From Gemmatimonadota bacterium (lineage in GTDB: Bacteria; Gemmatimonadota; Gemmatimonadetes; Longimicrobiales; Gaopeijiaceae): 64,000 bases of DNA. Of the stretch, positions 3,387 through 33,344 are shown piece after piece. Position 1 is the first letter of the stretch. Every line of letters starts with the position of its first letter. The translations under genes were made by a program, and so were the position numbers. The stretch covers positions 124,001-188,000 of the forward strand of contig JAUIEJ010000007.1 in NCBI GenBank assembly GCA_030428885.1, in the 5' to 3' direction. The notes under the pieces are model-generated. The model worked only from the letters and a program-made list of their open reading frames with translations. It made no database searches and was not told the DNA's origin.

Positions 3387-3392
3387 AGGGGA

Positions 3393-3917: not shown

Positions 3918-3972
3918 ACGCGCCGACCCGGATGAGGGGGATCATCGTGCTCGCGGAATGCGAGACCGCTGC

Positions 3973-4001
3973 TTGACGAACTAGTCGCATTGATTCTAGA
4001 C
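3973..4001 (+). promoter_or_regulatory. Candidate sigma-70 type promoter for the propeller gene
   Basis: TTGACG at 3973-3978 and a CTAGAC/TCTAGA-like hexamer near 3995-4001, separated by 16-17 bp. A start of transcription near 4007 would give a leader of about 40 nt before the GTG start at 4047. The -35 match is good and the -10 match is modest. Confidence 0.4.
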
Positions 4002-4046
4002 TGCCTTATCAGCCCCCCCGGCATGATCCCATGCAAGGGGGGGTTT

Positions 4047-5725: not shown

Positions 5726-5779
5726 CCATGGGGTCAGTGGGGACCCCTCTCCCCGCCGGCCTCAACTCTCGGACAAGAT

Positions 5780-7375
5780 ATGCTCGCGCTCGTCACGGCT
5801 GTCACGCTCCAAACGTTATCCGGGGTGCCCTCAAGGGATGTCTCCACGACGTTGGCAGCGTACTATCAGTCGCGTTCATCGAGTCCCTCGTCCTTGCGGC
5901 GCTGCGATGCGGACGCCGGAGATTTGTGCTTCGGGGGGGACCACGATCGACAACGGTGTCGGGACGCAGGTTCCTGTCCAACCGAACGAGAATCCAGTCG
6001 ATTCGTCGAGAGACTAACCGAGTTGGCTACCGCGTCTGAGGCACCTGGCGCCGCCCTGAGCCATGCGGTGTACGCTCTCTCGAAGTTCGGGCAGCCCACC
6101 CGGGCGCTGGAGTTGCTTAGCGGTTGCTCTGATCGGTTCCCTTGCAGCCTACTGAGAGGGCTCGTACTCGCGCGAGCGGGGGCCTCCGACCAAGCAGAAG
6201 AAGCGTTCCTGGACGGACTAGCTGCGAGTCCCGATTCGGTGAGGGCGAGACTTGAGGACATCGGGGCCCTACTGGGCGACTCGGACATCGCCGAGTACTC
6301 CAGTCTAAGCGGTGGTAAGCGCTTGGCCTTCCAGGATCGATTCTGGTGGTTGGCCGACCCTCTACATTCGCTGCCCGGAAATGACCGGTGGGTAGCTCAT
6401 GTGGCCCGCCGTCTCGAGCTCGGACTGCACGCGCAGATTATTCAAGCAGTGGGTTCCACGCATCCCGCGGGCCATGAGTTGTCCGTGATTCGTCGAGGGT
6501 TCGAAGATTCGTGGGAACTCCCCGAGGGAGCCCCATTCCGGATGTGGGTCTCTTCCCGGGGCGCGCCAGTTCATGCGATCCCGGAAAGCCGGGTCAATGC
6601 TCCGTTGACCGCAGTTCGATACTCCCTCTTGGCTAGTTCGAACGATGAGGCGTTCTCCCCGCCCTATTCGCCGATCGAGGATCTCGCCCATCAAGTTGGG
6701 CGCTTTCGCGACTCGGCCGGTCAACAGATCGCCGTCGCCACCGATGGTTCGGAGGCCGCTGGGGTCGTACATCTAGTCGTGTCGTCCAAGCCCGGTGCCG
6801 CCGATCTCTCACTCGTTTGGCAGGGCATGGAGGACCGGGCTGTCTTCCGTATCGACCTACCTACCGACACAGTGTTGATGAGTCTCGAGTCTCGCACGGG
6901 GCGCTCGGCCCGGCGGGCCCGTGGGGGTCTCGCGCCGCTCGACGGGTCCGGTTTCGGCCTGTCGGATGTCATCTTCGTTCAACCTGGCCCCGAAGGCGGC
7001 CCCAGCGATCGCGAATCGGCGACAGCGCGCATGCTCGCGGCCCGGTCCGTGCCCGCGGGCGTGAGTCTCGGACTCTACTGGGAGGTGTATGAGGCGGCTG
7101 CTGGCCCGCTGGGATACTCTCTGTCCATCGAGGACGCCAACCAAGGAAGTCGTCCTCTTCAGGCGGCCCTTCGCCTCCTGGGTTTCGGCGGGGAGACGGC
7201 CGGTTCCACCTTGTCGTGGCGCGATGTGTCGACTGGAGACGGAACCCACCCCGTCGGCGTGGAGATCGATCTCGGAATTCTGTCGCCAGGAGCATACTCT
7301 CTGACCCTCGACGTGTCGTCTGGGGAGCAGGTTGCGTCCACTTCGTGGCCGCTCACAATTGCACCGACTCGGTGA
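5780..7375 (+). CDS. Exported TPR-like protein with a WWLADPL-PGNDR motif
   Basis: 531 residues. The short hydrophobic N-terminus (MLALVTAVTLQTLSG) is a weak export signal. Residues ~80-170 look like degenerate TPR helices (ALELLSGCSDRFPCSLLRGL; AEEAFLDGLAASPDS). The sequence DRFWWLADPLHSLPGNDRWV matches a motif I associate with TPR proteins of uncharacterised role in Gemmatimonadota. The C-terminal ~200 residues look beta-rich. It is the last gene of the low-GC block starting at 4047 and is probably cotranscribed. No enzyme motif is seen. It might form an envelope complex with the propeller and the Cys-rich protein, but that is inference from position only. Confidence 0.65.
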   Translation: MLALVTAVTLQTLSGVPSRDVSTTLAAYYQSRSSSPSSLRRCDADAGDLCFGGDHDRQRCRDAGSCPTERESSRFVERLTELATASEAPGAALSHAVYALSKFGQPTRALELLSGCSDRFPCSLLRGLVLARAGASDQAEEAFLDGLAASPDSVRARLEDIGALLGDSDIAEYSSLSGGKRLAFQDRFWWLADPLHSLPGNDRWVAHVARRLELGLHAQIIQAVGSTHPAGHELSVIRRGFEDSWELPEGAPFRMWVSSRGAPVHAIPESRVNAPLTAVRYSLLASSNDEAFSPPYSPIEDLAHQVGRFRDSAGQQIAVATDGSEAAGVVHLVVSSKPGAADLSLVWQGMEDRAVFRIDLPTDTVLMSLESRTGRSARRARGGLAPLDGSGFGLSDVIFVQPGPEGGPSDRESATARMLAARSVPAGVSLGLYWEVYEAAAGPLGYSLSIEDANQGSRPLQAALRLLGFGGETAGSTLSWRDVSTGDGTHPVGVEIDLGILSPGAYSLTLDVSSGEQVASTSWPLTIAPTR

Positions 7376-7901: not shown

Positions 7902-7963
7902 AGCTTCGCGGTGCTCCCGAGCATCCTGGCCCGCTGGACAACGGAGTTCCTGCCGGAGCGGAT

Positions 7964-8305
7964 CTAGGCGGGGGCGAGGTCGACCAGCGCTGACAGACTC
8001 CGCCACACCGCCTGCCGGTCGCTCTCGGCCAGGGAACCGGCTCGCCGTAGGATCAGCCGGTTGTCGAGGGTGAAGAGCTTGAGGCGGACGATGCAGGGTC
8101 GAGGCAGACCAGCCGCGTCCAGATCCTCGATGACCACGTCTCCGGGCCAGGGAGCATGCGTCCGGGTGGTGATCATGGCGAAGATCGTGTGCCCGGCTTC
8201 GTTGAAGCTACGTTTGCTCAACGCCAGTGCCGGCCGCCGCTTCACACCGGGCCGCTCGGCGAACGGAAACGGCACGACCGCGACGTCGCCGGCCTCACAG
8301 GTCAT
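7964..8305 (-). CDS. MazF/PemK-type endoribonuclease toxin
   Basis: 113 residues. It starts MTCEAGDVAVVPFPF, the usual GDIxxVxFPF entry of the PemK/MazF barrel, followed by KRRPALALSKRSFN and a central TRTHAPWPGDVVIEDLDAAG. MazF toxins cut mRNA at short sequences. The start at 8305 is preferred over 8377 because it matches the family length and overlaps the antitoxin end by 11 bp, the standard arrangement. The C-terminal helix (SDRQAVWRSLSALVDLAPA) is complete. The gene lies entirely between the two DUF1854 repeat copies. Confidence 0.88.
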   Translation of the reverse strand: MTCEAGDVAVVPFPFAERPGVKRRPALALSKRSFNEAGHTIFAMITTRTHAPWPGDVVIEDLDAAGLPRPCIVRLKLFTLDNRLILRRAGSLAESDRQAVWRSLSALVDLAPA

Positions 8306-8528
8306 CGAAGGCCTCGTCGTCCTCCGGTGTGGTCCACTCGTCCAGGGTGTCCGAGACCGCGGCGTGGTAGGCCACATCGAACGGCTCGGCCCGGCGCAGC
8401 ACGGCCCGGCCGTCTTCGATCTCGTAGATCACCGTGTCGCCGGGCTCCAGGTTCAACCGCTCCCGCACCTGGCTGGGAATGGTGACCTGCCCCTTGCTCG
8501 ACAACTTGCTCGTATAGGTCGTCATCAC
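8295..8528 (-). CDS. AbrB/MazE-like antitoxin
   Basis: 77 residues. The N-terminal SpoVT-AbrB swapped-hairpin domain is clear (SKLSSKGQVTIPSQVRERL, then GDTVIYEIEDGRAVLRR). An acidic tail (DEWTTPEDDEAFDDL) probably covers the toxin active site. A strong ribosome site (GGAGGTGA) precedes the start; either of two adjacent ATGs could be used. It binds DNA and the toxin downstream, and probably represses its own operon through the inverted repeats at 8540-8567. Confidence 0.9.
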   Translation of the reverse strand: MMTTYTSKLSSKGQVTIPSQVRERLNLEPGDTVIYEIEDGRAVLRRAEPFDVAYHAAVSDTLDEWTTPEDDEAFDDL

Positions 8529-8539
8529 TCACCTCCAAA

Positions 8540-8567
8540 GTAAAGAGTGCGCCCCTTTACTCTTTAC
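8540..8567 (-). promoter_or_regulatory. Operator of the MazEF-like operon
   Basis: Three hexamers GTAAAG/CTTTAC at 8540-8545, 8555-8560 and 8562-8567. TAAAGAGT (8541-8548) and ACTCTTTA (8559-8566) form a perfect 8-bp inverted repeat. A TTGACG -35-like hexamer (minus strand, 8567-8572) adjoins them. The position between promoter and start fits autoregulation by the AbrB-type antitoxin. A related layout of GTAAGG/CCTTAC hexamers precedes the VapB-like gene at 41078. Confidence 0.6.
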
Positions 8568-8586
8568 GTCAAGAATGCGGCTACGA

Positions 8587-9018
8587 CCCCCCCCCTCACC
8601 CCACGAAGGCCCAGAGCAGCTTCCGGCTCCGGGCGTCCACCGCCTCGGGATCGGGGATCCGGTAGAGGTCACCGGCCACGTCGCGGATCAGGAGCCCGCC
8701 GTCGGGCATCTCCCGGGGCCAGTCGTCCAGCGGCGTCTGGAACACCCGGGGGCCCTGGCGCGTCTCCACGTGCCAGACCCGGATCTCGATCTCCTCGTCC
8801 AGGTCCACGACCCGGGTCACCTCGAGCACGAAGCCGGCCGACGCCACGGCGTCGTCCAGGGCCCGGCGCGAGCCGTCGTCGAGCCCGTCTTCGGGCCCCA
8901 CCAGGGCGAACTCCTCGTTGGAGGCGTCCCGCAGCGACACGTGGTGGTGGTCTTCCGACCAGGGGAACAGGCGGCGCACCCGCACCGCCCGCTCCTCGCC
9001 GTTCCGGATCGCCCACAA
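8587..9018 (-). repeat. Direct repeat copy B (432 bp), within the intact DUF1854 gene
   Basis: Partner of 7470-7901, offset by 1117 bp with no gaps. It begins at the C-run after the stop codon and ends 12-13 codons after the gene start. Identity stops abruptly at both ends, so the duplicated block is defined. Confidence 0.95.
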
Positions 9019-9054
9019 CTGGCCGTCGATCCGGCGTTCCAGACGCAGATTCAC
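8596..9054 (-). CDS. DUF1854 protein, partner of the adjacent ABC exporter
   Basis: 152 residues, starting at GTG 9054 with GAGGAGGGG upstream. It reads NLRLERRIDGQLWAIRNGEE, RRLFPWS, FALVGPEDGLDD and LRDASNEEFA segments and ends RDVAGDLYRIPDPEAVDAR-KLLWAFVG, matching DUF1854. DUF1854 proteins are small cytosolic proteins encoded next to particular ABC transporters; their role is unknown. It lies 32 bp downstream of the ABC gene and is probably cotranscribed with it. Its 3' 432 bp is duplicated at 7470-7901. Confidence 0.88.
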   Translation of the reverse strand: MNLRLERRIDGQLWAIRNGEERAVRVRRLFPWSEDHHHVSLRDASNEEFALVGPEDGLDDGSRRALDDAVASAGFVLEVTRVVDLDEEIEIRVWHVETRQGPRVFQTPLDDWPREMPDGGLLIRDVAGDLYRIPDPEAVDARSRKLLWAFVG

Positions 9055-11817: not shown

Positions 11818-13236
11818 ATGCACATCGACATCGCTACGTTCCGGTCCACCGGACGGGGGTCCCCCGTGGGACTCGCCGCCGCCCTCCTCGCCTGCGTCCT
11901 GCCCATGGCCACTCCGGTGGCCGCCCAGGACGAGGTGCCCACCATGAGCCTCGACGTCATGGTGGAGACCGACCTCCGGGCCGCCGCCACCGGGGTCGTG
12001 GCGGGCGTCGTGGTGAACGGCGAACTCGACTTCCTGGACGCCTGGGGCACCCCCTCCAGCGAGTCGACGGACTCCCTCGAAGCCACGGCCATGCTGGCCT
12101 TTCCGGGCCTCACCGAGGTGCTGGTGGCGGTCACGGTCCGGGCCCTCGCCGCCGGAGACCTGATCGATCCCACGGCGCCCCTGGCGTCGTACCTGGCCGA
12201 CGCCACCGATCGACTGGGGCGGGTCACCCTCGATCAGCTCCTGGCCCACACGTCCGGGCTCGACAACGCCCCCCTCCAGCCCGGCGCCGATTGGGCCGCG
12301 GCCCTGGCGGAGCTGGACGACCGGGCCTTCGTAGCCGAGCCGGGCACGGTCTACTCGGCGTCGCGCTACTCCTACCCCCTGGCCGCCCAGATCCTGGAGC
12401 GCATGCTGGGCATGCCGTTCGCCGACATCGCCACCCAGGCGGTCCTCACCCCTCTGGGCATGGGACGCTCCACCTTCGATCCCGACACGGCGCGGGCTCG
12501 GGGACTGGTGACGGGCTACGTCACCACCCAGACCGGGCCCGAAGCCGTGGAGCCCGTGGCGACGTGGGAAGGGTTGCCGGTGCTGTACACGGCGGCCCCC
12601 GACGTGCTGCAGCTCCTGTCGGCCTGGATGGCCGGCGGGATCCGGGGCTCGTCGCCCATCGGCACCGCACCCCCCGCCGTGCCCCGCCTCGATCCCTCCC
12701 GCCACTTCGGCGACGGGGTGGTGCAGGACGTGGCGGCCCTGGTGTCCCAGGCGTGGGTGAACAGCCAGGGCGCGGGCTTCGGCACGGCGATCCACATGTA
12801 CCCCGAAGCCGAGGCGGCCCTCTTCATCTGGAGCAACGGCGAAACGCCCCGCAACACGCTCTTCTGGATCCGGCGCCTCCTGGCCGAAGCCGTGGGCGAC
12901 GTGGAAACGAGCATGGCGAGCCAGGGCGTGCGGGTCACCCGCTCCACCGACCCGGAGCTCCGCCCCGACGGCCTGGACGACCTGGGCGAGTGGCAGGGCC
13001 TGTACCGCAACGGCGCCGCCCAACTCGGTCTGCGCTTCGCCGACGACCAGCTCTGGTACTACGACGGCGTACGCGACCTGCCCCTCCAGGGCATCGGCCC
13101 GGCCACCTTCGCCTATCGGGGCGAGGGCGGGGGTCCCCCCCTCCAGCTCGTCCGGGTGGGCGACCAGCGCATGGTGCTCTACGGCGCCCAGGCCTACGCC
13201 TGGGAAACGGCGGAGGTGCCGCGGCCGGGAGGATGA
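11818..13236 (+). CDS. Secreted beta-lactamase-fold protein, probably catalytically inactive
   Basis: 472 residues with an N-terminal export signal ending PVAAQDE. The class C beta-lactamase/esterase fold is recognisable: LAAGDLIDPTAPLASYL, VTLDQLLAHTSGLDN, and a C-terminal half with GAGFGTAIHMYP. The nucleophile motif (SxxK, usually in 'GSVTKxF') is replaced at about 95-101 by FPGLTEV, with neither Ser nor Lys. The YxN motif reads YSA (179-181). Both catalytic elements are therefore missing and hydrolase activity is unlikely. It may bind peptides or cell-wall fragments. It is a single gene, convergent with the propeller fragment that follows. Confidence 0.8.
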   Translation: MHIDIATFRSTGRGSPVGLAAALLACVLPMATPVAAQDEVPTMSLDVMVETDLRAAATGVVAGVVVNGELDFLDAWGTPSSESTDSLEATAMLAFPGLTEVLVAVTVRALAAGDLIDPTAPLASYLADATDRLGRVTLDQLLAHTSGLDNAPLQPGADWAAALAELDDRAFVAEPGTVYSASRYSYPLAAQILERMLGMPFADIATQAVLTPLGMGRSTFDPDTARARGLVTGYVTTQTGPEAVEPVATWEGLPVLYTAAPDVLQLLSAWMAGGIRGSSPIGTAPPAVPRLDPSRHFGDGVVQDVAALVSQAWVNSQGAGFGTAIHMYPEAEAALFIWSNGETPRNTLFWIRRLLAEAVGDVETSMASQGVRVTRSTDPELRPDGLDDLGEWQGLYRNGAAQLGLRFADDQLWYYDGVRDLPLQGIGPATFAYRGEGGGPPLQLVRVGDQRMVLYGAQAYAWETAEVPRPGG

Positions 13237-13250
13237 GGGGGCTCAGGCCC

Positions 13251-13369
13251 TCACGACCACTCCAACAGCACCAGTCGCTCCTCGCCGAGTGCGGTCGTGC
13301 TCACACCGACCACGAGTACATCGCCGAGTTTAGCGCCCGGACCCCGTCCGGCAGTCGAAGGCCGACCTC
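13251..13369 (-). pseudogene. 3'-end fragment of a beta-propeller gene (duplicate of the 15652-16749 gene)
   Basis: On the minus strand it encodes VGVSTTALGEERLVLLEWS followed by TGA, against VGVSTTALGEERLVLLECS at the end of the intact gene. Just upstream, LRLPDGVRAL is in a different frame because one base is missing near 13330. Nucleotide similarity to 15652-15770 stops at about 13369. Only the last ~40 codons remain. With the intact copy it forms same-orientation repeats around 13370-15651. Confidence 0.8.
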
Positions 13370-13408
13370 ATGGGCAGAGTCCTGCTGTGGGCGTCCGCAG
13401 GCTCAGAA

Positions 13409-14647
13409 TCAGTTCTTCTGAAGTCGATATTGCCGGATTTCCTGATCGCCGAGGGCGGTCTCCCAGACGCCGAGGACATAGTCCCCGCCCACCTCCAACG
13501 GAGTCGATCGCACGCCTCGAAGCGCAGGTAAGCCATCGGGGAGCTCGACCTCGCCCAGCCATCGACCGCTTCGATCGAAAACACTGAACGCTCCCGTCTC
13601 AAGTCCGGCACCTCTCCAGTCCTCGACCCAAAGATTTCCTTCCGTATCCATCAGAATCCAACGAAAGGCGGGCAAGAGATCCGCTTTCGCACGAGACTCC
13701 GTTTCCTGTCGAAGAGCCCTCGCCTCCGGCGCGGTTGGCGGAACGCCGTCCAATACGCTCCGCAAGTACCTGTCCACGATCTCCCGCGATGTCGGTTCCC
13801 TCGACCAAGCACCGCGAAGAAGCTGATGAAGAGCACCGCTCTCGTCGCGGATTTCGATGGCGTAGTCGTCGGTTGCTCCGATCGCGATCCGGTCACCCAC
13901 CCCACTCACATATGTGGCACTCCCAAAGAGAAGGTCTCGGCGGGCCGAACGTCCGGCGGAGGGCAGCGTCTCCTGCTGCCTTCCGAAGAGGCTAAGAAGG
14001 GAGTCGCCAGAACTCCCATAAAGTGGAGCTGCCCAAAGCGCCATTTTCGGGCGCCATGTCGCTCCCGATGGAGGAGACGCCGACGGAAGAGGCACCAGAA
14101 GTAGGAGTCCACCCTCTCGGAGCGAGCCCATCGCAACCCCTCCCAGGTCTCGCCCAGCCCCATCACCCGGCATCGGCACACTTCTCAAGAACTGTCCCTC
14201 TGGCGTAAACCAAACGCGCTTCTGAGCGCTGCCGTCGTACACGACGATCGAGTCATGCCACAGTTGGAGATACTGCGGATACCTGAACTCGGCTGGACCG
14301 TCCCCTCGCCGCCCGACATCGAACAGGTGGATCCCAAGTTCATCATACACTCGCACCTTCCCCGCCCCGGCGTCGAGTGCGCCTATTCGTCCATTTGAGA
14401 AGCGACGAACGCCGAAGATGTCTCCAAGCACATATTCTTCGGGACCATCGACGGACCCGATCCTCACCTCCGGTTCCGAGCTGATGCGCCACCTCGAAAC
14501 GCTGTCCCAGGCTGGCTCAGTCGAGACCGCGAGTTGCACGCCAGCGCTGTCAGAAAGCGAGAAGCCCGCCGGTGCTCTTCGGCTCTCGCACGCCCCGAGC
14601 GCGACAAGAGCAATGGGAATTGCTAGACCTTCGACGAAGGACCTCAT
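13409..14647 (-). CDS. Six-bladed beta-propeller lipoprotein
   Basis: 412 residues, starting at ATG 14647 so that the signal (MRSFVEGLAIPIALVALGAC) ends in the lipobox LGAC. Blades are visible as repeated 'G.(I/V)..LD...V.V(Y/F)...G' units: GRIGALDAGAGKVRVYDELG, then the propeller motif VGRRGDGPAEFRYPQYL, and a late GNLWVEDW blade. This is the same class as the propellers at 4047, 15652 and 23783. It follows the carboxypeptidase-regulatory gene by 40 bp on the same strand and is probably in the same transcript. Codon use is less GC-biased than in flanking genes. The function is unknown; it may bind ligand or partner at the outer membrane. Confidence 0.8.
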   Translation of the reverse strand: MRSFVEGLAIPIALVALGACESRRAPAGFSLSDSAGVQLAVSTEPAWDSVSRWRISSEPEVRIGSVDGPEEYVLGDIFGVRRFSNGRIGALDAGAGKVRVYDELGIHLFDVGRRGDGPAEFRYPQYLQLWHDSIVVYDGSAQKRVWFTPEGQFLRSVPMPGDGAGRDLGGVAMGSLREGGLLLLVPLPSASPPSGATWRPKMALWAAPLYGSSGDSLLSLFGRQQETLPSAGRSARRDLLFGSATYVSGVGDRIAIGATDDYAIEIRDESGALHQLLRGAWSREPTSREIVDRYLRSVLDGVPPTAPEARALRQETESRAKADLLPAFRWILMDTEGNLWVEDWRGAGLETGAFSVFDRSGRWLGEVELPDGLPALRGVRSTPLEVGGDYVLGVWETALGDQEIRQYRLQKN

Positions 14648-14687
14648 CGTCCACGCCCAGCGCCGCGGACTGCGGGCCTGCCTCACG

Positions 14688-15491
14688 TCAGCGACCCCCA
14701 CCTCGCGAGCCCCAGCCTTCCCGTGTCCACAAGACGATCAATCCACACAGTCCGCCCCCGATCGCGGCATTGTGGCGAAGATCCTCAGGCACCTCCCCAA
14801 AATACCGGTACACCTCAACCGCGACGAGGTCATTTGGTAGGATGCCGTCGAGAGGATATGTTTCCCAGGCATTGCGGCCGGAGTCAACCCGCACGGGCAA
14901 GTCGTTGAGGCGGTATCCGAAACACCCCCCTCCCAGAGACGAGACGATCTTCGGACCCCCTCCCGACCATTCGGTTCTTCGCACCCCCTCCACGTCCCGA
15001 AACACCTCGCGGACTCCGTACCGCGACTTCAAGGCTACATCAACAGGGTCCAAGAAGATCCCCCTGCCCAACGATCGACGCCGTGAGAACTGGCTCGCAC
15101 CACTGGTCCCGTCGACACGACCTACTAGCCCCTCTAACTCGATGGGTCGTACTTCCAGCCTGGCAATTACCTCCGTTTCCGTTGGCGGCATCTCCAACGG
15201 AGCATATCCGACTGCAACGACCCGAACCACAGCGGCGCGAACTCCGCTCCACCGCACGACTCCGTCGATGTCGGAGGTGCGCCTCCCCAGTTCGGCGCCG
15301 GTCGCGTCCAGTAGAATGACTAAGGCCTGCGGGATCGGGAGCCCTGAGACGTCATCGACCGCTCGAACGACGATTGCCTGGGCTTTCATGCTCAGCGGAC
15401 TGACTGCAAAGAGAGCGAGCAAGAGAGCTAGACGCGCGAAGGGTCGGCTTCCCTCAATCAGCCTGGGAGCATCGAGGCCACGTCGGTCCAT
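14688..15491 (-). CDS. Carboxypeptidase-regulatory-like domain plus barrel-less TonB-plug protein
   Basis: 267 residues. A signal segment (LALLLALFAVSPLSMKAQA) is followed by a CarboxypepD_reg fold: VVRAVDDVSGLPIPQALVIL, then VDGVVRWSGVR and VVAVGYAPLEM. The C-terminal ~120 residues resemble the plug of TonB-dependent receptors (YGVREVFRDVEGVRR, YRLNDLPVRVDS, LVAVEVYRYFGEVP, GLCGLIVLWTREG). No beta-barrel follows, so it is not a complete receptor. Such short plug proteins recur beside propellers in this phylum. It probably forms a unit with the propeller at 13409-14647. The role is unknown. Confidence 0.7.
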   Translation of the reverse strand: MDRRGLDAPRLIEGSRPFARLALLLALFAVSPLSMKAQAIVVRAVDDVSGLPIPQALVILLDATGAELGRRTSDIDGVVRWSGVRAAVVRVVAVGYAPLEMPPTETEVIARLEVRPIELEGLVGRVDGTSGASQFSRRRSLGRGIFLDPVDVALKSRYGVREVFRDVEGVRRTEWSGGGPKIVSSLGGGCFGYRLNDLPVRVDSGRNAWETYPLDGILPNDLVAVEVYRYFGEVPEDLRHNAAIGGGLCGLIVLWTREGWGSRGGGR

Positions 15492-15651
15492 ATCCGCCTC
15501 AGCTGCAGGAGTGGCTTTTCCCCGCGTCGGTCAACCACTATCGCGAGAGAGTGCCTGACCGTGGGAACTTCAGGGCACGAACCCGCTAAGAATCTGGTCT
15601 CAACATCCCGTACGTCAACAAGGTACGACGTCAAGCCATACGAGGAGTCCC

Positions 15652-16749
15652 TCACGAGCATTCCAACAGCACCAGTCGCTCCTCGCCGAGCGCCGTCGTG
15701 CTCACACCGACCACGAGTCCATCGCCGAAGTGGAGCGCCCGGACCCCGTCCGGCAGTCGGAGGACGACCGGGTCTCGGACGCCACCGAGGCCGAACCGCC
15801 ACCATTCCTCGGCGGTTCGTCGAAGCGCCTCCGATCCACCCCGACGCGCCCAGACGGTGCCCTGGGAGCCCGCCTCCAGGGCGGTCCACCCCGACAGGAC
15901 CTCGGGAGCCCGCGGGTCGGACGTCCTCGAGTCGCTCAGGATGTCTCCTAGACCGAACTCGATCCGCAGTTGCCGGTCCTCGGGCGACGCTCGCTCAGCG
16001 CGGTGCGGGAGAACGAGCCTCCCGAGGGGCGATCCCTCCGCCTTGGATCCGAAGGGCCGGACGTCGAGTCTCCCCTCCAGCCCATCGAGAAGAACCACGA
16101 CCGAGTCTCCCAGGACGACAGCGGCCCCGGTGGGCCCCGCTTGAGCCGGCCCCAGGGAGAGCCGGGATTCCCCTTCGTAGAGAATCGTGGCTCCGATCCG
16201 CTCGAACGCCGCCACCTCTTCCGCCCCGGTCGGCCCGACAAGAAAGACTCGCGATCGACCGGCTCCCTGGAGCTCGACGAAGGTCGACGACATGAACACG
16301 GTCCGGCCGTCGCGAAGGGGGCGGGACCACGCCACGCCCGCCACCGGCGGATCTTCATGTCGACGGGTATCGAGGTGGCGCAGGTCGGACGCGTCGAACG
16401 CCGAGACACGGAGGTTTCGGCCGTCCTCCACGCGCACCACGCCAGCGAACACCGTCAGATCGGTCGGGTCCGAGAACTCCCCGGGGCCCTGTCCAGCCCG
16501 CCCGCCGCTACCTACGACGTATCCGTCGAGGGAGAGCGCGACCACGGTCCGGGACGCCCGATCCAGAACGAAGATGCGGTCCCCCTCGATCCACGCGTCG
16601 GCGATCGATTCCCAGGGCACGGCCTCCGCGCCATGCGCGCTCGACGCCCAGATCTCGACCGCGTTCGATTGGGCCGGGAGGCGGGCCGGCCAGAGGCACG
16701 TCACCGCAACGAGGGCGATGGAGCGGTAGGCGGGAAGACACCGGTGCAC
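15652..16749 (-). CDS. Secreted six-bladed beta-propeller protein
   Basis: 365 residues. The GTG start at 16749 is chosen because CGGAGAG lies 8 nt upstream and a signal peptide follows directly (IALVAVTCLWPARLPAQS). Propeller features are DRIFVLDRASRTVVALSLDG, the motif GGRAGQGPGEFSDPTDLTVF, and a C-terminal VVGVSTTALGEERLVLLECS. Its last ~118 bp is duplicated at 13251-13369, with the low-GC pair 13409-15491 between. It diverges from the lactonase-like lipoprotein gene; two palindromes in the shared upstream region may control both. Confidence 0.78.
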   Translation of the reverse strand: MHRCLPAYRSIALVAVTCLWPARLPAQSNAVEIWASSAHGAEAVPWESIADAWIEGDRIFVLDRASRTVVALSLDGYVVGSGGRAGQGPGEFSDPTDLTVFAGVVRVEDGRNLRVSAFDASDLRHLDTRRHEDPPVAGVAWSRPLRDGRTVFMSSTFVELQGAGRSRVFLVGPTGAEEVAAFERIGATILYEGESRLSLGPAQAGPTGAAVVLGDSVVVLLDGLEGRLDVRPFGSKAEGSPLGRLVLPHRAERASPEDRQLRIEFGLGDILSDSRTSDPRAPEVLSGWTALEAGSQGTVWARRGGSEALRRTAEEWWRFGLGGVRDPVVLRLPDGVRALHFGDGLVVGVSTTALGEERLVLLECS

Positions 16750-16811
16750 GGAATTCGCTCTCCGGTTCGATGAGACAACGGATAGGCAGCGCTCGACGGC
16801 CAACGCCTTCA

Positions 16812-16875
16812 GTATAGGGCCCCGTATGGCGTTTCGCGGAACCCGACCGGAAACGCAGTCCCCGTTTCGTGAAAC
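16812..16875. promoter_or_regulatory. Divergent promoter region with paired palindromes
   Basis: GTTTCGCGGAAC at 16831-16842 and the perfect palindrome GTTTCGTGAAAC at 16864-16875 are 33 bp apart centre to centre, about three helix turns. A minus-strand TATACT (16817-16812) lies just beyond the first site, so a dimeric repressor bound there would block the promoter of the propeller gene. The regulator is not identifiable. Confidence 0.45.
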
Positions 16876-17025
16876 AGCACGGGGCGGAGCCGCGCAGCTT
16901 CCGCGCCCGGCGCCTCGGCCCGGTACTCCGCCGGATCGCACCCCTCCGGAAGACTGCAGCCGGATCCGGCACCACCGTTGCGACCGTCGGCGGCTCCTGA
17001 GTTCCCCTCGACAGGAGTCGACCCC

Positions 17026-18189
17026 ATGCGTGCACGCTGGTCCACACTCGCCCTGCTCTCCGTCCTGGCCCTCGGGGCCTGTGACGGGGACTCCCTCACC
17101 GCCCCCACCGCCGACGACGAAACGGTGGCCACCACGACGGCCGAGTCGTTCTTCGGGTTCGGGAATCGCTTCGGCGCCTCGGGCGGCACCGTGTTCACCG
17201 CCAGCAACGATCCCGGCGGAAACGAACTCCTCGTCTTCGACCGGGATCGTCGGGGCCGGCTGACCTACTCCGAGTCCATTCCCACCGAGGGACTGGGGAC
17301 CGGCGGAGGGCTGGGCAATCAGGGGGGGATCGCCCTGTCGGGCCAGTGGCTCGTGGCGGTGAACGCCGGGAGCGACGACGTCTCCCTCTTCCGTACCCGG
17401 GGACGGGTGCGTCTGGCCGATCGCGCGGCGTCGGGCGGTACGCGGCCCATCAGCGTGGCCATCCGGGGCCCCCTGGTCTACGTCCTCAACGGGGGCGGCA
17501 TGGAAAACGTCACCGGCTTCTGGCTCCACCCCCGGGGCCGCCTCGTCCCGATTCCCGGCGCCACGTACGACCTCTCCGAAGCCCAGGTGGGCTCGGCCCA
17601 GGTGGGCTTCTCACCCAACGGGCGTCACCTCGTGGTCACCGAAAAGGCCACCAACCGCATCGTGACGTTCCCCGTGCAGTGGAACGGACGTCTGGGCGCT
17701 TCGACCGTGAGCTCGTCGGCGGGCCAGACGCCCTTCGGGTTCGCCTTCAGCAACCGGGGTGACCTCATCGTCTCGGAGGCCTTCGGCGGAGCGCCGGGCG
17801 CGTCGGTGCTGTCGTCGTACGGATTCGAGCGCGCCGGCGGCGTCGACGACATCTCGGCCCTGGTGGCCACGACCCAGACGGCCGCCTGCTGGGTCGCCGT
17901 GACGCCCAACGGGCGCTACGCCTATTCGACGAATACCGGCAGCGGATCGGTGTCGCTCTTCCACGTCGCCCACACCGGCGTGATCGAGCTGGCCGACGCC
18001 ACCGCGGCCCAGACCGACGGCACGGCACCCATCGACATGGCCCTCTCCGACGGCGGCCGCTTCCTGTACGTCCTGGAATCGGCCACCCCGAGCATGCAGG
18101 GCTACCGGGTGGGTCACGACGGCAGCCTCGAGCCCGTGGGTGAGCGGGTCTCGCTGCCGGCGGGTGTGAACGGGTTGGCGGCGCGGTAG
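17026..18189 (+). CDS. Lactonase-family beta-propeller lipoprotein
   Basis: 387 residues, starting at ATG 17026 with CAGGAG upstream. The signal MRARWSTLALLSVLALGAC ends in a lipobox. The body has seven-bladed YncE/6-phosphogluconolactonase-like repeats: VFTASNDPGGNELLVFDRD, LVAVNAGSDDVSLFR, GFSPNGRHLVVTEKATNRI, VTPNGRYAYSTNTGSGSVSL, LSDGGRFLYVLESATPS. Proteins of this group include true lactonases and many non-enzymatic binding propellers; the lipidated location argues against central metabolism. A single gene followed by a strong hairpin. Confidence 0.85.
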   Translation: MRARWSTLALLSVLALGACDGDSLTAPTADDETVATTTAESFFGFGNRFGASGGTVFTASNDPGGNELLVFDRDRRGRLTYSESIPTEGLGTGGGLGNQGGIALSGQWLVAVNAGSDDVSLFRTRGRVRLADRAASGGTRPISVAIRGPLVYVLNGGGMENVTGFWLHPRGRLVPIPGATYDLSEAQVGSAQVGFSPNGRHLVVTEKATNRIVTFPVQWNGRLGASTVSSSAGQTPFGFAFSNRGDLIVSEAFGGAPGASVLSSYGFERAGGVDDISALVATTQTAACWVAVTPNGRYAYSTNTGSGSVSLFHVAHTGVIELADATAAQTDGTAPIDMALSDGGRFLYVLESATPSMQGYRVGHDGSLEPVGERVSLPAGVNGLAAR

Positions 18190-18216
18190 CGTCCCTGTGG
18201 TACCCAGCGACCTGAA

Positions 18217-18254
18217 CTCCGCCCCGTCTCGGCATCTGTCGAGGCGGGGCGGAG
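18217..18254 (+). terminator. Hairpin downstream of the lactonase-like gene
   Basis: 15-bp stem CTCCGCCCCGTCTCG/CGAGGCGGGGCGGAG with an 8-nt loop. The single imperfect pair is a U-G wobble only in the plus-strand RNA, which supports that direction. No U-tract follows, so it may act as a 3' stabiliser or a bidirectional block between the convergent genes. Confidence 0.5.
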
Positions 18255-18263
18255 GCCATCCCC

Positions 18264-18896
18264 TCACCGGACCGTGATCAGGGTTCGGACCGAGAGGTCG
18301 TCGACGACAAGAACCAAGGTGTCCGTTCGCGGCAGCGTGAGGAAGTTCCCGGCGCGAAGGGTCGCGGTGGCGGCCGGCGAACCCACGGTGACGGTTGAAT
18401 TCAGCACCCTCCACGAGATCCGATGCCCAGCCGGGTCCAGTTCCTGATCGGCGGCATCGAACAGACGGGCCTGGACCGCCGCCTGGCCGTCGTTCGGCAC
18501 AGTGACCGGCGAGGGATCGATTGCGATGCGCGCGACCGACTCCGGCGCGACGAAGACGACCGCGCTGCCCGTCCCGAAACCGAGTTGCGCCTCGAGCGTG
18601 GCCGTGCCGGGCGCAACCGAAGTGATCCGCAGGGTCGAGGCACGGACTTCGGCGTTGACCACGTCCGGATTCCGATTGGAGATCCGGACACGCTCGGTTC
18701 GTTCCGGCAACGAGTCTCCTCGTTGGTCCAGAACGAGAACCCGGAATTCGAAAACCTCTCCCAGCGCCATGTGGGCCGAATCGGGAAAGAGTCGGACGGA
18801 GTCGACGAACCGCGGACTCACGCCGTCCCGGCACGCGACCAGTACGAGGGAACCGACCAGGATGGCCACCCGCCGGTACACGGCTCCGAGTCTCAT
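18264..18896 (-). CDS. Bacterial Ig-like (BIG2-type) lipoprotein
   Basis: 210 residues. ATG 18896 overlaps the stop of the TonB receptor gene by ATGA, so the two are coupled. The signal MRLGAVYRRVAILVGSLVLVAC has a lipobox. The mature part contains BIG2-like Ig repeats (DSVRLFPDSAHMALGEVFEF, VVNAEVRASTLRITSVAPGTATLEAQ, then SVARIAIDPSPVTVPNDGQ). It is likely a surface-exposed accessory of the receptor, but no direct functional evidence exists. Confidence 0.75.
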   Translation of the reverse strand: MRLGAVYRRVAILVGSLVLVACRDGVSPRFVDSVRLFPDSAHMALGEVFEFRVLVLDQRGDSLPERTERVRISNRNPDVVNAEVRASTLRITSVAPGTATLEAQLGFGTGSAVVFVAPESVARIAIDPSPVTVPNDGQAAVQARLFDAADQELDPAGHRISWRVLNSTVTVGSPAATATLRAGNFLTLPRTDTLVLVVDDLSVRTLITVR

Positions 18897-21800
18897 CGGC
18901 CGAAGGTCACCCGGGCGCCCAGCTGGATCTGCCACTGGGAGTCGGGGGCCGACGGAGACCAGGCCGCCGAAGGGAGGAGCGACCCGCTGTCGTTTCGCCG
19001 CGGCAGCACACCCCCGCCCCAACTCAAGAGGGGGGCAATGGGGGGATCCCCGCAGTCGCACAGCTCGTACAGGGGAATCTGAGGCCGAACCTGTTGAATG
19101 GTCCCCCAGTCGCCGTTCACGAGGTTGAGCACGTTGATGAGGTCGCCTTCGAGTCGGATTTCGGTGGGCCCGAACCGTAGCGTCTGAGCCAGCCGGAGGT
19201 CGAGGCGGTGCTGGAACGGAGCCCGGCAGTCGTTGCGTTTGATGACCTCTCCGCGGTGGTCCGTGAGACAGGCATCGTTCCGGAGCGCCCCCGCCGTGAG
19301 CACCTGCGTCGCGATCGTGCCCGGCAGGTTGCCGGCCTCTTCCGGTACCCAGACCGGGTCGTTGTACCGGTCGGTCGAGGCACCGTCTCCCGGGAAGCCG
19401 TCGCCGTTGACGTCAAAGTCGTAGACGTACGTGAACGGCAACCCCGATTGGCCGGTGTACAGGAGCGAGATCTCGGTCTCGTCGAGCCCGGGGATCGGTG
19501 CACCGAAGAGGCTGAGAACGAACTTGTGGGGCCGATCGAAATTCGACGTCGTGAGGGGCGGCTTGTTCAGGTTTTCGGTGTTCGGATTCAGCCCCAGATT
19601 CGACGTCATGTCGGCGAACACCAGGCTCATGCGGTCCCACGAGCGGGCCAGCGCGTACGCGAGCTGGAACCGGAGCCGGGAACCGAGCGCTCCCCGCAGT
19701 TCCGCGGTGATGGACGCGCCCCAGTCCTCCCCTTCGTTGGTCACGAGGAGCATGTGTTGAAAGGGGGACCCTCGATCGCTGTAGAACCTCCGCGAACCGA
19801 GCGATGAATACCCCGGCGGCGGATTGCCGCCCTGGTCGACATCGAGTTCCTGGACGGCCACCTGATTCAGCGCCTTGCTGAACAGCGCGCCGAGCGAGGC
19901 GTTCAGGCCCTCCGAGAACTCGTGGTCGATGGCGAGGGAGAACTTCAGGTCCTGCGGAAAGCGGAAACCGTCTTCGAAGGCCACGACATTTCGCTGGAGC
20001 GTGCAGCCCTGGGCCGGGGCGCCTGTTCCGAAGCCGGGCGCGTCGTCGCCGGTGCAGACCTGAGTGAGCGAGCGGAGCCCGTCGTTGTGGAAGGCGTCGG
20101 CCAACCACACGTACGGGATCTGACCGGTGAACATGCCGCCGCCCGCCCGCACCTGCGTGCGATTGTCACCCCCGCTCTGCCAGTTCACACCCCACCGCGG
20201 TGAGAACATGAGGTTGCCGCTGGGAAGATTCGCCGTAGAATACCCGAAGTAGTCCAGGGCGTCGTTGTTCTCCGGGGGGGTGGAGAGCACGTAGGGCGCG
20301 TCGACGCGCAGGCCGACCCGCAGGCTCAGCCCCTTCCCGGGGCGCATCTGGTTCTGGATGAAGGCCCCCCACTCCGCCGCCTGGAACGCCACCTCCGGGC
20401 TGCCCCCCTCCACGAGTCGGGCCTGCTGATATCGCGCCGGTGTGTCGTTCTGCAAAGCGGCGAGGTTCGAATAGACGTACTCGCCTCGGGCGCCCGGCAG
20501 GTAGGCGTGGGCCATGTCGAGATACGAGCCCGTCACCCCCAGCGTCAGCACCCCGTCGTCGCCCCGGGGAATGTCCAGCGTGTTCGTGACCCGAAACGCC
20601 GTCTGCGACAGATGGTTCTCCTGGCCGAAGAAGTTGCCCCCGAGTCGGACCGAGCGCTGGTACGACGCCCCGTCGACGCTGCTGATCAGCTCCACCTCCA
20701 CCTGCGGCCAATCCGCCGCCGCCCGCGTGTCGTCCGTGCTCCGAGCCACCGACAGCTCGAGTTCGTTGGAGCCCCACCCCGACACGTCGCTGAACAACTG
20801 GAGCGAGGTCGTGTTGGAGGTTGAGGTGCGAAACACCGCGTTGGACGACAATCCGTACGGGTCGAACCCGGTGCGGTTCGGCGACTCGTCGTTGGCCGCC
20901 CGGGCGAACACGTTGCGGGCCGTCAGCCGGTGGCCCCGAGCCAGGTTCCAGTCCACGCGGGCGAACACGTTCGACAGTTCCCGACCCAGCGGATACGCCT
21001 CGGCCGCGCCCGTGTCGAAGCCCGTGAACCCCTCGAAGGACTCCTGCAGTTCGGTGATCCGATCCGTCGAGATTCGGATCAGGCTCGGGTCGTCGCGAAA
21101 CAGGTTGTAGCCCACGGGAAGCTGGTTGCGCTCCTCGAACTCGCCGGCCACGAAGAAATGGGCCCGGTCCCGCACGAGGGGACCCCCGACCGACAACGCC
21201 AACAGCGAGCGGTCCACTCCCGACGCCTCCACCGGACCCGTGATCAGCTGCAGGTCGCCCATGAGCGCCTCGGCCCGGTGCACCGCCGACGCCCGCACTC
21301 GCCAATCGTTCGTGCCCGTGCGGGTCACCGCGTTCATCACGCCCCCGGTGAAGCCCGAGAGCCGAACGTCGAACGGCGCCACCAGCACCTCGTACTGGCT
21401 CACCGCATCGAGGGGGATCAGCTTCGCCCCCGCCTGGCCTCCGGGCACACCCCCCGACGTCAGCCCGAAGAGGTCCTTGTTGAGCACCCCGTCGATAAGG
21501 ATCGCGTTGTACCGGTCGTTCTGCCCCGCGATGGAAAAGCCCCCGCTCTCCGTCGGCTTCACCAGCGGCGAGAGCAGGGCGAGCTCCATCACGTCGCGCG
21601 AGATCAACGGCGTCGACTCCAACCGCTCTTCGTCGAGACGGGTGGTGGGGCCCACGAGATCCCGGTCGAAGACCGCCGCCCGGTCGACCTCGACGTCGAG
21701 CCCCTCGAGCTCCACCGCCTCCGTCCGCAACACCACCTCCACCACCGTCGTCTCGCCCACGGGCAGCATCATGTCTTCGAGCCGGTACTCCGCGAAGCCC

Positions 21801-22078
21801 AGACTGCGGATCGTGACCGTGTACGGACCCCCGGGCTGGAGCAGCAGCACGAGGAACGCACCGTTCTCGTTGGTCACCGCCGCGCGCTCAGCCCCCGTGC
21901 CCACGCTCCGCACCACGACCTCGGCCCCGATCACCGGCGCTCCGCTCTCCTGAACCACCGTGCCCCGGATCGCCGAGCTCGTGCGCGATTGGGCCGCCAG
22001 GGACGCGGGGAGCAGGAGCGCGGCGAGGGCGAAGACGAAGGGAGGGTTGAGCCGACGTCGGGTCATGGGCGAGAACAT
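18893..22078 (-). CDS. TonB-dependent receptor with N-terminal carboxypeptidase-regulatory domain
   Basis: About 1061 residues. ATG 22078 has GAAGG just upstream; ATG 22066 (MTRRRLNPP) is the alternative, both ahead of the signal FALAALLLPASLAAQ. The domain order is a CarboxypepD_reg fold (SAIRGTVVQESGAPVIGAEV; NENGAFLVLLLQPGGPYTV), a plug (SRDVMELALLSPLVKPTESG, FDVRLSGFTGGVMNAVTRTG) and an Oar-like outer-membrane barrel with many aromatic-ended strands, ending LGARVTFGR. Such receptors import large ligands or export proteins using TonB energy. The ligand is unknown. The Ig-like lipoprotein gene is translationally coupled downstream. Confidence 0.9.
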   Translation of the reverse strand: MFSPMTRRRLNPPFVFALAALLLPASLAAQSRTSSAIRGTVVQESGAPVIGAEVVVRSVGTGAERAAVTNENGAFLVLLLQPGGPYTVTIRSLGFAEYRLEDMMLPVGETTVVEVVLRTEAVELEGLDVEVDRAAVFDRDLVGPTTRLDEERLESTPLISRDVMELALLSPLVKPTESGGFSIAGQNDRYNAILIDGVLNKDLFGLTSGGVPGGQAGAKLIPLDAVSQYEVLVAPFDVRLSGFTGGVMNAVTRTGTNDWRVRASAVHRAEALMGDLQLITGPVEASGVDRSLLALSVGGPLVRDRAHFFVAGEFEERNQLPVGYNLFRDDPSLIRISTDRITELQESFEGFTGFDTGAAEAYPLGRELSNVFARVDWNLARGHRLTARNVFARAANDESPNRTGFDPYGLSSNAVFRTSTSNTTSLQLFSDVSGWGSNELELSVARSTDDTRAAADWPQVEVELISSVDGASYQRSVRLGGNFFGQENHLSQTAFRVTNTLDIPRGDDGVLTLGVTGSYLDMAHAYLPGARGEYVYSNLAALQNDTPARYQQARLVEGGSPEVAFQAAEWGAFIQNQMRPGKGLSLRVGLRVDAPYVLSTPPENNDALDYFGYSTANLPSGNLMFSPRWGVNWQSGGDNRTQVRAGGGMFTGQIPYVWLADAFHNDGLRSLTQVCTGDDAPGFGTGAPAQGCTLQRNVVAFEDGFRFPQDLKFSLAIDHEFSEGLNASLGALFSKALNQVAVQELDVDQGGNPPPGYSSLGSRRFYSDRGSPFQHMLLVTNEGEDWGASITAELRGALGSRLRFQLAYALARSWDRMSLVFADMTSNLGLNPNTENLNKPPLTTSNFDRPHKFVLSLFGAPIPGLDETEISLLYTGQSGLPFTYVYDFDVNGDGFPGDGASTDRYNDPVWVPEEAGNLPGTIATQVLTAGALRNDACLTDHRGEVIKRNDCRAPFQHRLDLRLAQTLRFGPTEIRLEGDLINVLNLVNGDWGTIQQVRPQIPLYELCDCGDPPIAPLLSWGGGVLPRRNDSGSLLPSAAWSPSAPDSQWQIQLGARVTFGR

Positions 22079-22108
22079 GCGTGCCTTCGCGACCAAACCG
22101 CAACAGGA

Positions 22109-22140
22109 GCCCCGCGACGCCATCCAGCGCATCGCGGGGC
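22109..22140 (-). terminator. Hairpin downstream of the Cys/His secreted protein gene
   Basis: Perfect 9-bp inverted repeat GCCCCGCGA/TCGCGGGGC with a 14-nt loop, located after the stop at 22164 and before the receptor start. There is no clear U-run, so termination is only tentative. Confidence 0.35.
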
Positions 22141-22163
22141 AGCCTACCGCGCGGAGGAGGGGA

Positions 22164-22667
22164 TCAGTCGGCGATGGGGAAGCCCAGTTCCGCCAGAGAT
22201 TGCGTCGCCCTCGCCATGATCCAGGACGCATAGGGCACCTCACGCGTGACCGGAGTCCCATGACACTCCGCCTCAACCGTACCCGGGACGTCACCCACTT
22301 CTACACCCGGCGTATCGACCATCCAATGGGCGAGGGCTTCGGGCGCCAGGTCGCTGATGGCTGCAGCGAACTCCACGGGCTCGCAGATACTGTGGGCGTT
22401 CGAGCAGGCTCCGGAGAGCCAGTACGTATGCCCCTGATCGGCGATGATGTGCTCACCACCACCGGTGATCTCGTAGAAGTACTCGTCCGACACATCCAGC
22501 GTGTAGCCCGACGGAGGGGTGGGCGCGCTGACCCCGTACGCATGCTTCCGGGCGCCCCCATCTACGGCCTCCCAACACGTTCCGCACCCACCTTGGGCCA
22601 TCGCGGGCTGAGCGACGACGGCCCCGACGATCACGGCGAGTAGTGACAGCCTGATTACCCTGAACAT
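22164..22667 (-). CDS. Small secreted Cys/His protein
   Basis: 167 residues with a strong ribosome site (AAGGAGGTCAT directly before ATG) and a signal peptide ending VAQPAMAQ. The mature part has GGCGTCWEAVDGG, a DEYFYEITGGGEHIIADQGH stretch, then GACSNAHSICEPVEF and a later Cys. Element order (CxxC, then His, then G-x-C-S-x2-H-x-C) resembles the protein at 5237-5725, so they may share a fold stabilised by disulfides or metal. There is no known domain. It lies 112 bp downstream of an AraC-like regulator on the same strand. Confidence 0.65.
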   Translation of the reverse strand: MFRVIRLSLLAVIVGAVVAQPAMAQGGCGTCWEAVDGGARKHAYGVSAPTPPSGYTLDVSDEYFYEITGGGEHIIADQGHTYWLSGACSNAHSICEPVEFAAAISDLAPEALAHWMVDTPGVEVGDVPGTVEAECHGTPVTREVPYASWIMARATQSLAELGFPIAD

Positions 22668-22779
22668 ATGACCTCCTTCGGAAGGGAACTGAAACCTCTC
22701 GAAGGAACACTAGGTGGGGGGAGTACGCTTTTCACGGACAGATAGATGACATTCGCACCGCCGGGTGACGCCGGATCCG

Positions 22780-23574: not shown

Positions 23575-23782
23575 GTCCTGCTCTTAACATGCCCCCCCCC
23601 CCTTTCAGGAACGCAAGGGTCTCGTGCGGGGAGCCACACTCCGCCGCACCCGTTCCGCAAGCCCTGTCGCCGCTAAACTGTGCCACCGGGCCCATCACAA
23701 CCGCTCAACGAGGCTCTTCTCGCGTTTCGACACCCGTAGTCGCAGTATGGTCGCACCGGTTCCCCCTTCATGGAGCGACGTC

Positions 23783-25027: not shown

Positions 25028-25047
25028 CCTCGTCCCGGAGGACTCCC

Positions 25048-25470: not shown

Positions 25471-25479
25471 ATTCCCGCC

Positions 25480-31664: not shown

Positions 31665-33344
31665 ATGGCCGAGCAGAAGTTCATCTACCACATGCACCGG
31701 CTGAGCAAGATCGTTCCGCCCAAGCGGAAGATCCTCGAAGACATCAGCCTGTCGTTCTTTCCCGGCGCCAAGATCGGTGTCGTGGGGCCCAATGGATCGG
31801 GCAAGAGCTCGCTCCTCAAGATCATGGCCGGCATCGACACCGACTTCCTGGGCGAGGCCTGGGCCATGAAGGGCACCCGCATCGGTTACCTGGCGCAGGA
31901 GCCCGAACTCGATCCGTCCCTCGACGTGAAGGGCAACGTGGAGCTCGCGGTGAAGGAGACCCGCGACCTGCTGAAGCGCTTCGAAGAGGTCAACATGGCG
32001 TTCGGGTCGGTCACCGACGACGACGAGATGAACGCCCTCATCGAGGAGCAGGCCAAGTTGCAGGACCGGATCGACGCCGCCGACGCCTGGAATCTCGATC
32101 GCAAGCTCGAGATCGCCATGGACGCGCTGCGGCTGCCCCCGGGCGACGCCGACGTCACGACGCTGTCGGGCGGCGAGCGGCGCCGGGTGGCCCTCTGCCG
32201 GGTGCTCCTCGAGGAGCCCGACATGCTGCTCCTGGACGAGCCCACGAACCACCTCGATGCCGAGTCGGTGGCGTGGCTCGAGCATCACCTCGCCGCCTTC
32301 CCCGGCACCATCGTGGCCATCACCCACGACCGCTACTTCCTCGACAACGTGGCCGAGTGGATCCTGGAGCTCGATCGCGGGAAGGGGATTCCGTGGAAGG
32401 GCAACTACACCTCCTGGCTCGAGCAGAAGGAATCGCGCATGGCCGTGGAGGAGAAGCAGAACAGCGCCCGGGCCAAGACCCTCCAGCGGGAGCTCGAATG
32501 GGTGCGCATGGCGCCCCGGGCGCGGCAGTCCAAGGGCAAGGCGCGCCTCAACGCCTACGAGGAACTCCTGGCCGCCGACGAGCGGGAGCAGGTGCGCACG
32601 GCCGAAATCCTGATTCCCAAGGGACCCCGTCTCGGCAAGGTCGTGATCCAGGCCGAGCACGTGAAGAAGGGCTACGGCGACCAGCTCCTGGTGGAAGATC
32701 TCACCTTCGACGTGCCCCCCGCCGCCATCGTGGGGATCATCGGGGCGAACGGCGCCGGCAAGACGACCCTCTTCCGCATGATCACCGGCCAGGAGCAGCC
32801 CGACGACGGGCGGCTCGAGGTGGGCGACACCGTGAAGCTGGCCTACGTGGACCAGAGCCGCGAAGCCCTCGACCCGAACAAGAGCGTCTACGAAGAGGTG
32901 ACCGGCGGGGCCGACGTGCTCCAGTTCGGCCGGGCCGAGGTGAACGGCCGGGCCTACCTGTCGTGGTTCAACTTCCGGGGTCCCGACCAGCAGAAGAAGG
33001 TCGGCGTGCTGTCGGGGGGGGAGCGCAACCGCCTGCACCTGGCCAAGCTGCTCAAGGAGGGGGGCAACGTCATGCTCCTGGACGAGCCCACCAACGACCT
33101 GGACGTCGACACCCTGCGGGCGCTGGAAGACGCGATCCTCGACTTCGCCGGCTGCGTGCTGGTGATCTCCCACGACCGGTGGTTCCTGGACCGCATCGCC
33201 ACGCACATCCTCGCCTTCGAGGGCGACAGCCGCGTGGTGTGGTTCCCCGGCAACTTCCAGGAGTACGAGGACGACAAGAAGCGCCGTCTGGGCGACGACG
33301 CCGATCAGCCCCACCGCATCAAGTACAAGAAGCTGGTGCACTGA
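31665..33344 (+). CDS. ettA: Energy-dependent translational throttle protein EttA
   Basis: 559 residues, close to the 555 of E. coli EttA. Two ABC-F ATPase domains: Walker A GPNGSGKSS and GANGAGKTT; signatures LSGGERRRVALCRVLLEEPD and LSGGERNRLHLAKLLKE; Walker B with DEPTNHLD and DEPTNDLD. The arm is present, and the ~80-residue linker (ARAKTLQRELEWVRMAPRAR) has the MAPRARQSKGKAR segment typical of EttA. It starts MAEQKFIYHMHRLSKIVPPK, the family N-terminus. It binds the ribosomal E site and gates elongation according to ATP/ADP. All catalytic residues are intact; single gene. Confidence 0.96.
   Translation: MAEQKFIYHMHRLSKIVPPKRKILEDISLSFFPGAKIGVVGPNGSGKSSLLKIMAGIDTDFLGEAWAMKGTRIGYLAQEPELDPSLDVKGNVELAVKETRDLLKRFEEVNMAFGSVTDDDEMNALIEEQAKLQDRIDAADAWNLDRKLEIAMDALRLPPGDADVTTLSGGERRRVALCRVLLEEPDMLLLDEPTNHLDAESVAWLEHHLAAFPGTIVAITHDRYFLDNVAEWILELDRGKGIPWKGNYTSWLEQKESRMAVEEKQNSARAKTLQRELEWVRMAPRARQSKGKARLNAYEELLAADEREQVRTAEILIPKGPRLGKVVIQAEHVKKGYGDQLLVEDLTFDVPPAAIVGIIGANGAGKTTLFRMITGQEQPDDGRLEVGDTVKLAYVDQSREALDPNKSVYEEVTGGADVLQFGRAEVNGRAYLSWFNFRGPDQQKKVGVLSGGERNRLHLAKLLKEGGNVMLLDEPTNDLDVDTLRALEDAILDFAGCVLVISHDRWFLDRIATHILAFEGDSRVVWFPGNFQEYEDDKKRRLGDDADQPHRIKYKKLVH

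Follow-up and report, generated by a model that had tools for sequence, protein, structure and literature searches.

How does a pair of foreign genes come to lie between an intact gene and a displaced copy of that gene's own 3' end? The question is raised by a 64,000-nt stretch of Gemmatimonadota bacterium DNA (GenBank assembly GCA_030428885.1, contig JAUIEJ010000007.1, positions 124,001 to 188,000; hereafter the window), in which the gene for a secreted beta-propeller protein, P0001, is followed by two genes of low guanine-plus-cytosine (GC) content and then by an orphan copy of the P0001 3' end (Table 1). We find that this arrangement recurs at unrelated genes of the same genome, and that in each clear case the repeated segment ends close to the stop codon. 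The propeller locus is best explained as an integration scar, not as a mobile element in its own right. With confidence a little better than even, we attribute the scar to single-crossover integration of a recircularised foreign fragment that carried the gene's 3' end, displacing the resident end in a manner similar to that of rhs loci.

Local alignment on the gene strand matches the end of the P0001 coding sequence, including its TGA stop codon at 15652-15654, to the orphan in the same orientation over 124 columns with 91% identity and a single 1-nt deletion in the orphan. An earlier note on this DNA, made from the sequence alone, had described a same-orientation repeat of about 118 bp with a one-base deletion, and our alignment bears this out nearly to the base. 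Aside from the frame-breaking deletion, the orphan differs from the gene end by four nonsynonymous and five synonymous changes. A genome self-comparison scores the pair at an E-value of about 2e-41, and similarity drops sharply on both sides, where the best extensions are chance matches of 9 nt and 19 nt. In a 23-contig draft such as this assembly, an artefactual duplication has to be weighed, but we consider it extremely improbable: the copies are set apart by an indel and by differences at 9 percent of positions, the locus lies inside a 367-kb contig, and the whole stretch matches the genome once.

The 2278 nt that separate the intact copy from the orphan hold a two-gene operon in the orientation of the P0001 gene, with the two genes overlapping by 14 nt. 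The first, P0003, encodes a secreted protein whose carboxypeptidase-regulatory-like N-terminus is a weak match under the cut-off; the second, P0002, encodes a putative lipoprotein whose own propeller match likewise falls under the curated cut-off. The earlier note had called the two a low-GC propeller and plug-like pair. The low GC and the propeller match stand, but Pfam Plug finds no match in P0003, and "plug-like" is a loose name for the remainder of that protein. The leader between the P0001 stop codon and the first cargo gene presumably holds that gene's promoter. In composition, the pair is clearly foreign. GC in 500-nt windows is 0.61-0.64 between the copies and about 0.70 outside, and the cargo genes, with 0.62 where called genes average 0.71, fall in the lowest 0.3%. 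In a codon-context model the pair scores under all 1168 called genes of at least 200 aa, a percentile that overstates the contrast somewhat since the called genes had passed the same model. No relative of either cargo gene was found in viral contigs, nor of the propeller P0002 in plasmids, and the cargo has no terminal repeats.

The earlier note had proposed a scan of the genome for same-strand repeats of gene 3' ends. Ours covered 2.04 Mb taken as stretches, with genes called by the codon-context model and with near repeats and protein fragments sought within 25 kb. It gave four clear cases and one weak case with a common anatomy: an intact gene, cargo from the stop codon on, and an orphan 3' end. 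Two of the clear cases, at the propeller gene and at a DUF1854 gene, lie in the window and share the same geometry, as the earlier note had said. The third, on contig C8, involves a putative DUF2442-like gene, with a 152-nt repeat at 95% identity and 1.75 kb of cargo. The fourth, on contig C11, involves a gene for a 1168-aa helicase, with an orphan fragment containing an internal gap, a repeat of about 485 nt and 9.7 kb of cargo; it is the sole case in which the intact gene differs from its orphan in the last codons. The weak fifth case is a GTP-cyclohydrolase-like gene, also on C8. Across the four clear cases, repeats run from 124 to 485 nt, cargoes from 0.7 to 9.7 kb, and divergence varies as well; the cases are therefore separate events, in agreement with the independence claimed for the two in the window. 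The further claim of a common process holds for a recurrent kind of event, but not for the shared recombinase or junction motif that the note had suggested looking for: no integrase or transposase appears in the cargoes examined, and k-mer sharing in the junction flanks is no greater than among random genome segments, with no common motif.

All five orphans are C-terminal, lie downstream of the intact gene and are on the same strand, and no orphan fragment in swapped order was found in the 2.04 Mb. One N-terminal fragment lies 12.6 kb upstream of an intact outer-membrane efflux gene (G000:C20 227964-228289 and 240741-241066); we kept it apart, as a metal-resistance island and a transposase lie between fragment and gene. 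These counts bear on tandem duplication followed by decay, by which the propeller gene would once have flanked the pair on both sides and the downstream copy would have lost its 5' part. Such a history would suit a family in which propeller genes are numerous and often tandem, and a genome in which true tandem paralogues are present elsewhere. Random decay, however, would leave N-terminal, internal and upstream fragments as well. It would also require at least two extra deletions ending exactly at the stop codon, and the composition of the pair is unlike that of the adjacent P0001 gene. We regard this history as quite unlikely.

The ends of the repeats are more telling than their lengths. Measured from the stop codon, the downstream limit of homology falls at +9 nt for DUF1854, +6 nt for the propeller gene and +4 nt for the C8 gene, and about 9 nt before the stop for the C11 helicase, whereas the upstream limits are scattered. 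Limits tied in this way to the stop codon are to be expected if donor and recipient were alike at the gene end and differed beyond it. They fit poorly with capture of a foreign fragment at a staggered break, in which nicks 100-500 nt apart would be joined around the fragment and gap filling would duplicate the intervening DNA. That process needs neither incoming homology nor a donor, would yield the same final anatomy with no junction motif, and could draw on the Ku protein encoded in this genome. It predicts random downstream limits, with duplications reaching into a convergent neighbour equally viable, yet none of the four limits is more than about 10 nt away from the stop; by a rough estimate, this is a coincidence of about 1 in 100,000 or rarer for repeats of 124, 432, 152 and about 485 nt. 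It also predicts as many cases at gene 5' ends, where the one N-terminal fragment found lies in a transposase-bearing island. We consider staggered-break capture unlikely. A run of G directly after the stop in three cases (baseline for GGG, 6%) was dropped as an after-the-fact chance pattern; it is absent in the C11 case and in the weak case on C8. The count of cases excludes repeats at C11:51571, C2:288968, C2:291251 and C8:220261, none of which falls at a clear gene end.

A limit at the stop codon is also the mark of site-specific integration at gene 3' ends. Elements inserted in icd of E. coli are integrase-borne and bring a replacement 3' end, and the cases described here could be remnants of such elements whose integrase has since been lost. 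The anatomy would be identical, with the gene end restored, the displaced original at the far side and the limit at the stop. Two marks by which integrase islands are recognized are present, namely a restored target 3' end (imported, as we infer) and direct repeats at both ends. Scanning the cargo genes of all four clear cases with Pfam, apart from the small open reading frame (ORF) of the DUF1854 cargo, nevertheless revealed no integrase or excisionase. In addition, the smallest cargo measures only 0.7 kb, the four target genes are unrelated and would each require an integrase of their own, the junctions lack a common motif, and, as described above, no relative of the propeller-locus cargo was found in viral contigs, nor of P0002 in plasmids. 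We therefore hold site-specific integration to be improbable. Similarly doubtful is a lineage process, as yet undescribed, that would favour the 3' ends of ordinary genes as sites for inserting foreign genes, rebuilding the end each time without an element-borne recombinase. A dedicated recombinase is not supported.

The differences between the copies offer a view of where their divergence arose. Pooled over three cases, the coding differences comprise 14 synonymous and 12 nonsynonymous changes (14/26), against an unconstrained expectation of 31% synonymous (p ~0.013). This excess suggests that some of the divergence built up when each sequence still belonged to a functional gene, one in a donor and one in a recipient.

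We propose that a foreign fragment carrying the propeller-gene 3' end, followed by the plug-like/propeller operon, would have recombined with the resident gene through the common 3' end. By the simplest route, the fragment would recircularise and integrate by one crossover; transformation in which homology served one side and end joining sealed the opposite one would give the same product. In either case the gene would stay whole, its own 3' end replaced by or mixed with that of the donor; the stop codon would be followed at once by the cargo, and the old 3' end would be left beside the neighbouring gene, to decay there. The donor, its circular or linear form, the route and the crossover are what we infer, and the recipient side is consistent with homology at one end of the insert only and a non-homologous junction at the other. 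The propeller locus shows a duplication, and not the deletion of resident DNA typical of homology-facilitated illegitimate recombination; the single-crossover form fits better because a classic one-sided event usually gives insertion together with deletion. In E. coli, single crossovers of recircularised DNA gave partial duplications of the lacZ end in 56 of 60 clones, spanning 109-950 bp in the 14 clones sequenced (Amarir-Bouhram et al, 2011; PMC3240628).

Several points weigh against single-crossover integration. Neither a donor nor an empty site was found for the propeller locus: no relative of P0001 above 34% identity occurs among 121 genomes of the family, leaving no empty site to examine. 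For the C11 helicase, the flank available beside the sole congener ortholog (57% identity) is too short to show whether the site is empty. No orphan turned up in 400 kb of congener G001, a stretch expected to hold only about one. The excess of synonymous changes is modest, and later constraint on the intact copy could account for part of it. Polarising the DUF1854 changes by eye with a 74%-identical outgroup from congener G003 placed 7 of 10 on the orphan and 3 on the intact copy, which is not decisive, and the share on the orphan could come from decay alone. Finally, Ku (end joining) and a ComEC-family gene (DNA uptake), both present in the genome, fit the proposal but are unspecific, showing only that these processes are possible.

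Table 1. Features of the propeller locus, the DUF1854 locus, their surroundings and the C11 helicase case (window positions unless another stretch is given).
Feature	Positions	Strand	Basis
P0001 gene, intact; secreted protein, 6-bladed/NHL propeller kind	15652..16749	-	profile alignment, codon model
Repeat copy within P0001 gene: final 118 nt of coding sequence and 6 nt beyond the stop	15646..15769	-	local alignment
Cargo leader, non-coding, 154 nt, from P0001 stop to first cargo gene	15492..15645	-	
Cargo gene 1, P0003: secreted, carboxypeptidase-regulatory-like N-terminus, plug-like remainder, GC 0.62	14688..15491	-	
Cargo gene 2, P0002: putative lipoprotein, 6-bladed/NHL beta-propeller, GC 0.62	13409..14701	-	
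Distal cargo end meeting the orphan; non-homologous junction	13368..13408	-	
Orphan P0001 3' end, 91% identical, 1-nt deletion, broken frame	13245..13367	-	local alignment
Beta-lactamase-family gene, genus-conserved, convergent with the orphan, its end ~8 nt away from the repeat	11818..13236	+	
EttA ABC-F ATPase gene, far end of the 18.4-kb interval	31665..33344	+	
DUF1854 intact copy, 3' part of gene 8596-9054	8587..9018	-	
DUF1854-locus cargo, 685 nt: MazF/PemK toxin gene (7964-8305) and small upstream ORF (8295-8528)	7902..8586	-	
DUF1854 orphan, 432-nt copy of the 3' part, intact frame, 140/152 codons	7470..7901	-	
Two fragments of one helicase gene, at differing distances downstream	L110 (G000:C11:240001-260000) 5495-5789 and 13247-13295		

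The surroundings of the propeller locus place it in a lineage-specific interval. Congeners G001, G003 and G004 each carry a conserved counterpart of the beta-lactamase-family gene beside the orphan (60-66% amino acid identity). In G003 and G004 the EttA ortholog is the next gene, within a few hundred bp; here 18.4 kb (13237-31664) separate the two, and the cargo pair and P0001 therefore lie in DNA specific to this lineage. The interval looks like an insertion hotspot, because G001 holds about 2.6 kb of different DNA at the same spot. Also within it lies a 264-aa open frame (22780-23574) of GC 0.62 and foreign composition, with no family match.

At the DUF1854 locus, the two copies are 97.5% identical over 432 nt. 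The small ORF upstream of the MazF/PemK toxin gene looks like a putative AbrB-type antitoxin gene. A second compositionally foreign group (3990-7375) directly adjoins the DUF1854 orphan and comprises a propeller gene (3990-5240, DUF5128) and a TPR gene (5780-7375); its GC is 0.62-0.64, its codon scores lie under those of all called genes of at least 200 aa, and the repeat listing of 1-30000 holds no repeat flanking it.

P0001 itself has a normal GC of 0.70, yet its codon use is atypical (1.1 percentile in the codon-context model). Its ORF is open as far as 17529, and the best-scoring start is at 16749. Aligned with P0002 and relatives, it matches DUF5128 and NHL propellers: 6 of the 10 aligned members match DUF5128, and the alignment profile matches NHL structures with an E-value of 1e-32. 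P0001 and P0002 are only 19% identical to each other. Single-sequence structure predictions of the two were too poor to use (mean predicted local distance difference test scores of 33 and 35, respectively).

Within the C11 cargo we identified a further 49-nt fragment of the helicase gene (score 33.6, compared with 25 for the best unrelated random segment). It suggests an earlier round, with successive displacement at one gene end. Around this case lie two SNF2-like helicase genes (G000:C11 236843-238969 and 261273-263438), 82% identical, 22 kb apart and with similar neighbours, which appear to be a tandem duplication. Elsewhere, at the start of a contig, L129 (G000:C18:1-20000) holds a long in-frame tandem array with a period of 363 bp at 1-6000.

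Most foreign genes in bacteria come without a visible mobile element, and how they arrived can rarely be reconstructed. A displaced gene end is a scar that can be read: it identifies the anchor gene, marks the point at which homology gave out and offers a basis for estimating how old the event is. If such scars are common at ordinary genes, and not just at toxin loci such as rhs, they would provide a simple genome-wide count of one-sided recombination.

The proposed mechanism is known; what is unusual is the setting, with ordinary genes, repeats that extend as far as the stop codon and a recurrence at several unrelated loci within a single genome. At rhs loci, an intact gene is followed by a low-GC trough and by frameshifted 3'-proximal fragments that form direct repeats of varying length; in Serratia such fragments have 91.6% amino acid identity, and homologous recombination with circular intermediates was proposed (Jackson et al, 2009; PMC2935791). 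Our cases share with rhs the intact gene upstream, the same-strand orphan 3' fragment downstream and the foreign cargo between them. They differ in that rhs swaps a variable tip, whereas here the repeat extends to the stop codon, with no dissimilar C-terminal tip on the intact gene; moreover, the genes are ordinary (propeller, DUF1854, DUF2442-like and helicase) and the cargo consists of separate genes. In the type VI secretion system of Vibrio cholerae, displaced effector ends and arrays of orphan immunity genes were attributed to homology-facilitated illegitimate recombination (Kirchberger et al, 2017; PMC5361080). There too, a module anchored by one-sided homology pushes the old 3' end downstream, but it is the effector that is exchanged, with its immunity gene retained, while here the resident gene is whole and nothing hints at an effector-immunity pair. 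The integration of recircularised DNA in E. coli (Amarir-Bouhram et al, 2011; PMC3240628) likewise leaves foreign DNA flanked by a partial gene duplication in the same size range. That, however, was a laboratory event, under selection and with conjugative transfer.

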